This document shows, piece by piece, positions 55,867 to 58,590 of a stretch of 59,650 nt of DNA. Both the position numbers and the translations under genes were made by a program. Origin of the DNA: Pseudooctadecabacter sp. Lineage in GTDB: Bacteria; Pseudomonadota; Alphaproteobacteria; Rhodobacterales; Rhodobacteraceae. How positions within the stretch are numbered: position 1 is the first letter of the stretch; the number at the start of each line of letters is the position of its first letter. Under the pieces are notes generated by a model that saw only the letters and a list, made by a program, of their open reading frames with translations, had not been told where the DNA came from and ran no database searches. The stretch is taken from contig NZ_JAHDGE010000012.1 of the NCBI RefSeq assembly GCF_020627745.1, forward strand, positions 1 through 59,650, read 5' to 3'.

Positions 55867-55905
55867 AGGCCCGGCCTGCGCGCAAACCCGCCGCAGGCCG
55901 GGCCT
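55867..55905 (+). terminator. Rho-independent terminator of thrS
   Basis: A perfect 14-bp GC-rich stem (arms AGGCCCGGCCTGCG and complement) with an 11-base loop is followed by TTGTTTTT, 24 bp past the thrS stop. It isolates thrS from the bufferin operon. Confidence 0.9.
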
Positions 55906-56062
55906 TTGTTTTTAGGGGTTTTGGGTCGCGCTACGGCTGACGAAACCTAACGGACGTGTGATGCACGGCCCCGTGAATAGCTTGTTAAGGCATGGTCAGC
56001 CTAATGTAGGTCAGTCGCCAGTCACGGCGCTTCACTGCAACAAACCAAATGGGAAACCTACC

Positions 56063-56365
56063 ATGTCCAAGACAACCACAACCCTCGCCCTTGCCGCGTC
56101 TGTCGCCACAGCCATCGCAGGCCTGTCCACTGCGGCCCACGCCCAGTCCAACGAAAAATGCTACGGCGTGTCGCTGGCCGGTGAAAATGACTGTGCCGCA
56201 GGCCCCGGCACAACATGCGCAGGCACATCCACAGTAGACTATCAGGGCAACGCCTGGACCTTCGTGCCAGCAGGCACCTGTGAGACCACATCCATCACCG
56301 ACGCCGCCGACGGTGTTGAGCGTATGGGGTCCCTGGAAGAGCTTGACCGCGACATCCCTGCATAA
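56063..56365 (+). CDS. bufA1: Bufferin-type RiPP precursor, DUF2282
   Basis: The 100-residue precursor has a Sec signal peptide with cleavage expected after residue 27 (STAAHAQ). The mature part carries four Cys (33, 44, 52, 73; spacing C-x10-C-x7-C-x20-C) in [24 protein letters not shown] and AGTCE, a DUF2282 pattern. In characterised relatives the DUF692 enzyme modifies Cys residues and the product binds copper in the periplasm. The ATG at 56063 is preceded only by GGGAAA; a longer frame upstream would destroy the signal peptide. Unlike most RiPP leaders, the leader is the signal sequence itself. Confidence 0.93.
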
Positions 56366-56373
56366 ACGCAGCC

Positions 56374-56402
56374 CCCCGTGTTTCATAAACCCCGTGTTTC
56401 AT
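56374..56402 (+). repeat. 13-bp direct repeat after bufA
   Basis: CCCCGTGTTTCAT occurs twice (56374-56386 and 56390-56402), spaced by three bases. Function unknown; it may be a regulator or RNA-processing target. Confidence 0.75.
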
Positions 56403-56408
56403 GACAAA

Positions 56409-56436
56409 GACGCCCATCCACACTAGGGTGGGCGTC
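56409..56436 (+). promoter_or_regulatory. Stem-loop between bufA and bufB
   Basis: GACGCCCA and TGGGCGTC form an 8-bp stem that can extend by a bulged C/G pair. With no T-run it is more likely an attenuator or 3'-end stabiliser that keeps precursor levels above the modifying enzymes. Confidence 0.6.
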
Positions 56437-56457
56437 AGTCCATAAGGAGCCTTCAGC

Positions 56458-57306
56458 ATGTTTGACGCCACGCGACCCACCCTGCCAAACCGTCCGGGCG
56501 TCGGATACAAGGCCCAGCATTTCAGCGATATCATGGACGATGCAGGCCCCGTGGGCTGGCTGGAAATCCACGCTGAAAACTACATGGGGATGGGCGGCCG
56601 CCCCTTGGCGCAACTGCGCGCCCTGTCTGAAAAATTTGCCTTTTCCGTCCACGGTGTGGGCCTCAGCATCGGGGGCGAAGGCCCGCTGGATGCGGACCAT
56701 CTGGCCCGTCTGAAAACCCTGTGCGACTGGCTGCAACCGGCCAGCTTTTCCGAACATCTGGCGTGGTCCACCCATGACAGCGCGTTCCTCAATGACCTTT
56801 TGCCCCTGCCCTATACGGCGGCCACGGTAAAACGGGTCGCGGATCATATTGATCAGGTGCAGGCGACGCTTGGGCGTCAAATGCTGCTGGAAAATCCCTC
56901 CAGCTACCTCGCCTTTGCCGAATCCGACATGTCCGAGACGGATTTTCTGGCCGAAATCGCCGCCCGCACGGGTTGTGGCCTGCTTTTGGATGTGAACAAC
57001 GTCTTTGTCAGCGCCACGAACCTTGGCTATTCGCCGCAAGGCTACATTGACGACTACCCCCTTGATCACGTTGGTGAAATTCACCTCGGCGGTCATGATG
57101 AGGACGAGGATGAGACCGGCGCGCCCTTGCTGATCGACAGCCACGGGGCCGAGGTTGTGGACCCTGTCTGGGCGCTGCTGGATTACACGCTGGCCCAATC
57201 CGGGCCGAAACCGCTGTTGATCGAATGGGACACCGATGTTCCCGAATGGTCGGTGCTGGTGGAGGAAACCAAACGCGCCGATGCGGCCCTGAAGGTCACG
57301 GCATGA
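56458..57306 (+). CDS. bufB: MNIO-family DUF692 RiPP-modifying enzyme
   Basis: The 282-residue TIM-barrel enzyme belongs to the multinuclear non-heme iron oxidases, which include methanobactin MbnB. Likely iron ligands are His21, His65 (SVHGVGLS), Glu99 (FSEHLAW), Glu145 (LLENPSSY), Asp178 and Asn180 (LLDVNNV), His209 (GEIHLGG), His229 and Glu256 (LIEWD). It would oxidise Cys of the BufA precursor with BufC. It follows bufA after 92 bp with AAGGAG ahead of its ATG, and it is coupled to bufC (ATGA). Confidence 0.94.
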
Positions 57307-58037
57307 TCACCACCCAATCCGAATTTCGCGCGGCCCTGATGGACCCGCAACAGCCGCCGCCCGAAGGCCTGCGCAATCCGGACGGCGCGCAGGCGACAAA
57401 GCGGTTCGACGTCTACCGCAACAACGTCGCCGTCAGCCTGACCGACGCGCTTGAGGCCGCCTTTCCGGTCGTTCACAAACTGGTCGGCACCGATTTTTTC
57501 CGCGCCATGGCAGGGGTTTACCTGCGCGCGCATCCGCCAAAATCCCCGCTGATGATGTTTTACGGCGACGATATGCCGGACTTTTTGGCAGGCTTCGGTC
57601 CGGCCCAATCCGTGCCCTATCTGCCCGATGTGGCACGGCTGGAACTGGCCCTGCGCCACAGCTACCACGCCGCAGATGCCACGCCGGTGTCCCCCGACGC
57701 GTTGGGCCAACTGCCGCCCGATACGCTGCCCCACGTGACATTCACCTTTGCGCCCTCGGTCCGGATCATCCCATCGACCTTTCCCCTGCGGGACATCTGG
57801 TGGTCCAACACCCACGGCGGTGACATCGCCCAAGGCGCGCAAGCCGCCCTGATCACCCGCCCCGAATTCGACCCCACGGTCGATGCCCTGACACCCCGGC
57901 AAGCCGCCGTCGCGCAGGCCCTCATGTCGTCCGAGCCGCTGGGCCATGCCCTGCGCCACGGTGGGGCTGGCTTCGACCTTGGCCCTCTGCTGGGGCTTTT
58001 GCTCGCCCGCAACGCCATTACCTCCCTCAAGACCTGA
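57303..58037 (+). CDS. bufC: DUF2063 partner protein of the MNIO enzyme
   Basis: The 244-residue protein has the DUF2063 features [22 protein letters not shown] and a C-terminal domain with PLRDIWWSN. In related clusters BufC binds BufB and recruits the precursor. The ATG at 57303 overlaps the bufB stop and gives the family start; a longer frame reaches back to 57225 inside bufB. Confidence 0.92.
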
Positions 58038-58050
58038 AAGAAGACCCCCC

Positions 58051-58590
58051 ATGATTGCCCTTTATGACCGCACCGCCCACGCCCTGAACGCCTCCGCCGG
58101 TGTGATCCTGCCCACACTGGCCCGCTTCGTCTTTGCGGCCACCTTGTTGTTTTACTTCTGGAATTCCGCTGGCACCAAATGGGACGGCACCCCCTTCACC
58201 CCCGGTGTAGGCGGCTACGCACAGATCTTCCCCAAAGCGATGGAGGCCGTGGGCTATGACATCAGCCAGATGTCGGTCTTTCACTGGGCGGTCGTCGTGG
58301 GCGGCACCTTGGCCGAATACATCCTGCCCCTGCTGATCGTGATCGGCCTGTTTACGCGGCTGGCGTCCCTCGCGATGATCGGCTTCGTCGTGGTGCAATC
58401 GCTGACCGACCTTTACGGCCACGGCGGCATCGAACATGCGGAGACGTTGGGCGCCTGGTTCGACAACCTGTCAAACGGCGCGATCCTTGATCAACGCGCG
58501 TTCTGGGTGCTGCTGCTGGTGACGTTGGTCCTCAAAGGGGCCGGCCCGCTGTCCGTGGACCGTATCCTGAACCGCAGCCGCAGCTACTAG
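58051..58590 (+). CDS. bufD: DoxX-family membrane protein of the bufferin operon
   Basis: The 179-residue protein has four membrane helices and the DoxX-like stretch LPLLIVIGLFTRLASLAMI. It is the usual last gene of bufferin operons; proposed roles include redox coupling or a membrane step, but its function is unproven. The ATG at 58051 follows AAAGAAG. Its stop overlaps the stop of the convergent gene. Confidence 0.9.
   Translation: MIALYDRTAHALNASAGVILPTLARFVFAATLLFYFWNSAGTKWDGTPFTPGVGGYAQIFPKAMEAVGYDISQMSVFHWAVVVGGTLAEYILPLLIVIGLFTRLASLAMIGFVVVQSLTDLYGHGGIEHAETLGAWFDNLSNGAILDQRAFWVLLLVTLVLKGAGPLSVDRILNRSRSY

Follow-up and report, generated by a model that had tools for sequence, protein, structure and literature searches.

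We confirm that positions 56063-58590 of the window (the whole stretch of DNA analysed, 59,650 nucleotides) carry a complete Buf1-type bufferin operon, a locus already explained by a known family. We consider it very probable that in this chromosomal operon BufB and BufC together install two thiooxazoles on the precursor BufA, the exported product of which buffers periplasmic copper. Bufferin gene sets are common, with thousands of members of the class gathered in PMC12452194, and the present operon is an ordinary one, a new member of an abundant known class. Its control features and a C-terminal tail of BufA are the only additions to the known picture, and they are modest. The four genes, which the first-pass annotation had proposed as a complete bufA1-bufB-bufC-bufD operon, are indeed found at this place, each with a family match above its cut-off:

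56063-56365, plus strand: bufA, Buf1 (DUF2282) bufferin precursor, 100 aa (PF10048, 84.2 bits, residues 30-76; four cysteines with the family spacing)
56458-57306, plus strand: bufB, MNIO bufferin maturase, 282 aa (NF050167 MNIO_BufB, 370.9 bits, cut-off 310; iron ligands)
57303-58037, plus strand: bufC, DUF2063 partner protein (PME type 1), 244 aa (PF09836, 94.7 bits; AlphaFold and Foldseek)
58051-58590, plus strand: bufD, DoxX-type membrane protein, 179 aa (PF07681, 28.4 bits, cut-off 23.6)

All four genes lie downstream of thrS; a G+C-rich inverted repeat and its T run come after that gene (around 55867-55914, read by eye). A gap of 92 nt separates the bufA stop from the bufB start, bufB and bufC overlap by 4 nt, as had been noted for a DUF2063 protein overlapping a DUF692 one, and 13 nt lie between bufC and bufD. 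The profile searches against DUF2282 and DUF692 that the annotation had proposed as a check bear out its family names, including that of the DoxX-type membrane protein: in Pfam, BufA matches DUF2282 (E=6.3e-24, cut-off 22.4 bits), BufB MbnB_TglH_ChrH (348.7 bits, E=2.4e-104), BufC DUF2063 (E=4e-27) and BufD DoxX (E=2.7e-6). Because each of these matches exceeds its curated cut-off, they are not due to chance. Among the NCBIfam models, BufB passes the cut-off of MNIO_BufB only, scoring below those of HvfB (245.8 of 360 bits), MbnB (52.4 of 325), ApyH and ChrH; BufC stays below the HvfC cut-off (34.9 of 142 bits), BufD below that of the HvfX family (33.1 bits, cut-off 80), and BufA has no match in NCBIfam. 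With these Hvf scores and a BufA devoid of EGKCG, the operon is not of the oxazolin (Hvf) type, nor, from the MbnB score, of the methanobactin type. The order bufA-bufB-bufC followed by doxX is that of a Buf1 operon, published clusters of which contain a precursor, an MNIO, a DUF2063 partner and DoxX (PMC12452194), and the name, gene order and function initially proposed are consistent with both the curated families and these clusters. The genome, about 90% complete, yielded one MNIO and one DUF2282 match. Between 55800 and 58700 we found neither an Rfam family at the gathering threshold nor a sigma-70-type promoter.

The operon is well conserved among relatives. DUF2282 was found in 39 of the 61 genomes searched, including 16 of 19 genomes from the genus (its own genome among them), and gave no match in the other 22, three of them from the genus. 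Around these matches, 33 of the 38 loci fetched have bufA, bufB, bufC and bufD in this order, all in the same orientation (14 of 15 genus loci, 19 of 23 others). The sole exception within the genus (L040) stops at a contig end; no bufD was seen in L062, L063 and L068, and several loci further afield match bufD only weakly (18-30 bits). The fifth exception, L065 of the same class, has bufA on the opposite strand and no bufC match; L069, also of this class, has two bufA genes. Another locus (L052:3780-4536) contains two tandem bufA genes ahead of one bufB, a layout also mentioned in PMC12452194.

The iron ligands of BufB are intact. TglH binds iron through His71, His107, Glu151, Asp184, Asn187, His216, Asp229, His231 and Glu258 (PMC10880893), and the alignment places identical residues of BufB (H65, H100, E145, D178, N181, H209, D227, H229, and E256) at all nine positions, where the first reading had spoken of most of the expected metal ligands; BufB is thereby a bufferin-type MNIO with a full set of aligned iron ligands. 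D258 of BufB aligns with the Asp found two residues past the last Glu ligand of MbnB, the counterpart of the proposed base Asp240 of VcMbnB (PMC8888699), and FonB has a like residue, Asp249 (PMC13097082), likened here by description and not by alignment with BufB. In HvfB, three site-3 ligands are required for activity (PMC13419390), and the matching residue types are present in BufB.

The partner protein BufC yielded an AlphaFold model (39 sequences, mean pLDDT 94.3), which three PDB entries matched in Foldseek with E values of 0.001 or lower, namely 8hi7_A (E 2.3e-6), 8hci_A (E 3.1e-6), and 3dee (E 7.7e-4). Their TM scores of 0.52-0.61 by query length place the match at the level of the fold, with differences. 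The first two are TglHI entries, whose chain A we have taken to be TglI, judging from its length, and 3dee is NGO1945, the example of a DUF2063-RRE partner given in PMC12452194; by sequence alone, BufC has no relative in the PDB at E 0.1. As judged from the whole-fold match to 3dee and the TglHI chains, the second domain of BufC fits RRE-bearing partners, and BufC can be assigned to the DUF2063-RRE partners (PME type 1) of Buf1 systems, with its RRE part placed by this match and not by an RRE profile.

BufA is the 100-residue protein with four cysteines described in the first pass, and has the DUF2282 domain and the four conserved cysteines of a Buf1 precursor, at positions 33, 44, 52 and 73 (C-x10-C-x7-C-x20-C). 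In Buf1, the central cysteines are converted to thiooxazoles and the outer two form a disulphide (PMC12452194, PMC13097082), so that the following parts can be proposed along the protein:

56063-56146, plus strand: putative Sec-type signal peptide, BufA residues 1-28, ending in AHAQ (by eye)
56159-56161 and 56279-56281, plus strand: Cys33 and Cys73, predicted disulphide (analogy with Buf1, PMC12452194)
56192-56218, plus strand: span from Cys44 to Cys52, the central cysteines, predicted thiooxazoles (analogy with Buf1, PMC12452194)
56321-56362, plus strand: conserved C-terminal tail, BufA residues 87-100 (sequence conservation)

The putative signal peptide, read by eye from hydrophobic residues and the AHAQ end, is possibly also the leader for the modification, by analogy with PMC13419390. 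The 10-7-20 cysteine spacing recurs in 36 of 38 BufA rows (window included, L065 and L069 excluded), the remaining two having 10-8-20 and 10-6-20. The closest named relative of BufA, 86% identical, comes from Octadecabacter ascidiaceicola (L070), among the 80 top-ranking of at least 585 loci, a list of named loci that may omit records very near to this genome. A bufA of Ruegeria pomeroyi is on this list as well. The AlphaFold model of BufA had a mean pLDDT of 58 and was not used, and its profile found no relative in the PDB by sequence at E 0.1.

The Pfam match in BufA stops at residue 76, and the tail lies outside the domain, after a variable linker, its consensus GSLExLxRD[IL]P[AS] ending directly before the bufA stop codon. 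Across the 16 genus loci, residues 87-100 are mostly kept and residues 79-86 are variable. In a survey of 117 loci (112 plus five earlier missed by motif; L065 and L069 excluded), 99 of the 114 distinct BufA sequences end in [RT][DN][ILVM]P plus 0-2 residues. The query alignment from which the 80 named loci were retrieved included the tail, so this sample leans towards Rhodobacterales and towards tail-bearing BufA. The tail is partial or missing in one locus of the same family (L059) and in six of the same class (L061, L063, L064, L066, L067, and L068). Within the genus, several synonymous codons are used for it, which points to a constraint on the protein; the tail may contribute to the fold, serve for recognition or act as a signal in translation.

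Upstream of bufA, the alignment of the genus loci revealed an element that could serve as operator:

55958-55980, plus strand: candidate operator GYGANRCACN6GTGANTNG, here GTGATGCACGGCCCCGTGAATAG (16-locus alignment, 19-genome pattern search, flanking controls)

This CAC-N6-GTG element is nearly private to bufA within the genus. Its CAC-N6-GTG box (CACGGCCCCGTG at 55964-55975) has a CAC that starts 98-104 nt before bufA in the 16 aligned loci. Searched without mismatch in the 19 genus genomes, the element lies upstream of bufA in 15 of the 16 genomes that have this gene, is absent from the three genomes without it, and occurs in two other places in total; the reversed pattern gave one match. 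As the pattern was drawn from the bufA loci, its presence there is by construction and its rarity elsewhere is the result. Among the 112 loci with distinct upstream sequence used for these counts, a looser CAC-N6-GTG box occurs within 220 nt upstream of bufA in all 16 of the genus and in 65 of 95 others, compared with 0-5 of 16 and 1-8 of 89-94, respectively, in seven control windows further upstream. Two boxes 15 bp apart precede bufA in nine of the 112 loci; a double perfect box (CACN6GTGANNCACN6GTGA) was rejected as a family-wide signal, with nine of 149 genomes having it, the present one lacking it and the reversed control giving 6 hits. A small inverted repeat, TCGCC-N6-GGCG, lies at 56015-56029 between the element and bufA; with a spacer of 4-8 nt allowed, 15 of the 16 loci from the genus have such a repeat, as do 6 of 97 others.

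An operator common to bufA and gor (glutathione reductase) was also considered and is not supported, and we claim no shared regulon. With one mismatch, the pattern of the bufA element matched the gap between rpiA and gor in five genus genomes (G001, G002, G003, G004, and G012), and the reversed control of this search gave 6 matches. Of 15 genus loci in which gor was matched (L182-L196), seven have the CAC-N6-GTG box within 150 nt before gor and none has the full bufA element there; at E 1e-150, gor was not found in the present genome. A promoter-like stretch with GTGACTGG or GAGACTGG occurs in the same interval in 13 of these 15 loci.

A further element lies between the first two genes:

56409-56436, plus strand: intercistronic stem-loop with an 11-bp stem, a 6-nt loop and no T run (fold z, covariation, locus survey)

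In the window, the region folds with a z of -3.56, and none of 200 shuffles was equally stable. Over the 16 genus sequences, 96.0% of the cells pair and 13 cells are changed on both sides of the stem, values that none of 500 shuffles reached; the two-sided changes fall in three pairs, a number attained by 265 of the 500 shuffles. Sliding the stem partner by 1-3 columns lowered the pairing to 35-52%, a comparison that favours the unshifted version over the slid ones, the structure having been derived from the window sequence. Over all loci, 71 of the 104 distinct bufA-bufB gaps of at least 30 nt fold with a z under -2 (112 loci, one without a BufB match, five missed by motif, L065 and L069 excluded), and seven loci of other families (L061-L064 and L066-L068) have a gap shorter than 30 nt or a z above -1. 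In 95 of 111 loci, the first 75 nt downstream of bufA contain a stem of at least 8 bp, which starts at a median of 14.5 nt past the bufA stop (90 stems); such stems are much less frequent just before bufA (12 of 111) and within it (1 of 111). Hiding of the bufB ribosome-binding site by the stem, as in CutF, was rejected, with a Shine-Dalgarno-like motif in the stem in none of the 61 testable loci (in 29 others with a stem, no motif could be made out clearly).

From characterised relatives, we infer how these parts may work together, namely the modification, its sites, the export and the copper binding. BufC, with its DUF2063 and RRE-like domains, would hold the BufA precursor, probably via the signal peptide, while BufB, acting as a multinuclear non-haem iron oxidase, would convert C44 and C52 into 5-thiooxazoles with the loss of 4 H each. 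BufA would then be exported by Sec, a C33-C73 disulphide would form, and the mature protein would buffer excess periplasmic copper; the exported Buf1 product chelates copper and helps growth in excess copper (PMC12452194, PMC13097082). BufD would be an accessory membrane protein. The dedicated upstream element would switch the operon. The stem-loop between bufA and bufB may keep the precursor mRNA more abundant than that of the enzymes, perhaps, in the simplest reading, as a stabiliser of bufA mRNA like that of puf.

The stem-loop might instead be a transcription attenuator, to which we give a small but appreciable chance, as it sits right after the first gene and a T-rich tail follows the stem in 7 of 95 loci. 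T-poor terminators do occur in G+C-rich bacteria, but a T run is absent from the other 88 stems, and the window stem is absent from the terminator-like sites listed. A bolder proposal is very improbable in our view: in Rhodobacterales, the BufA tail and the stem-loop would act during translation, in a CutF-like manner without hiding of the ribosome-binding site, nascent BufA sensing the status of copper or export and setting the level of BufBCD, with the CAC-N6-GTG operator switching the operon.

The target of the mature protein can be weighed in the same way. A thiooxazole protein directed mainly against another metal or stress (gold, mercury, or oxidants) would fit with the existence of gold-induced gig operons and MerC-bufferin fusions, and with a DoxX homologue that guards against oxidative or sulphur stress (PMC12452194), but it is unlikely here, given that the characterised Buf1 members bind copper (PMC12452194) and that nothing specific for mercury or gold was found with Pfam among 20 other ORFs of the window (seven of them without any match, one an ArsC-family protein). 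That the enzymes make some other modification, for instance the oxazolone-thioamide of methanobactin, has a close to negligible probability: although the MbnB and HvfB models also match BufB, the sole cut-off that it passes is that of the BufB model, and the products of MNIO-PME1 systems have been assigned as 5-thiooxazole (PMC13097082).

Bufferins are a recently described, common bacterial way to tame copper, of which the present operon, from an Octadecabacter-like member of the Rhodobacteraceae, is a well-conserved further example. Since its relatives keep the operon amid variable surroundings, the comparison exposes cis elements (the upstream element and the stem-loop) as well as a protein tail, and these make the switching of Buf1 operons that have no sigma factor/NrsF pair testable. 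Our impression is that the bufferin literature in its available portions does not deal with these three features: stem-loop, terminator and attenuation have no occurrence in that of PMC12452194, none of its eight "C-terminal" passages concerns a Buf1 tail, and promoter, upstream and regulator have no occurrence in that of PMC12538549.

Compared with the Buf1 clusters of PMC12452194 (DUF2282-MNIO-DUF2063-DoxX), the operon has the same four core genes in the same order and the same four-cysteine precursor with an N-terminal signal-like segment. NrsF, which occurs in some of those clusters, gave no match in the present genome, itself about 90% complete, whereas the operon and its relatives have the tail, the upstream element and the stem-loop, of which the available text of that paper makes no mention. 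The gig operon of Legionella pneumophila and Cupriavidus (PMC5413113), a bufferin cluster according to PMC12452194, is metal-responsive and belongs to a different lineage; we liken it to the present operon by description only. Captophorins and oxazolins (FonABC, HvfABC) likewise combine an MNIO with a DUF2063-RRE partner and carry 5-thiooxazoles on a cysteine-containing precursor, but this precursor has EGKCG repeats (PMC13097082) instead of the DUF2282 domain of BufA. The CutF-CutO operon of Rhodobacter capsulatus is also copper-related; there, an mRNA stem-loop separates the gene of a Sec-exported cysteine protein, whose C terminus is conserved, from the next gene (PMC9973294). The CutF stem shields the cutO ribosome-binding site, unlike the buf stem, and the CutF C terminus is proline-rich, whereas the BufA tail has one proline. 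In the puf operon of Rhodobacter, an intercistronic hairpin provides a case of RNA structure between co-transcribed genes that sets protein ratios (PMC11354728), a role that the buf stem-loop may share.
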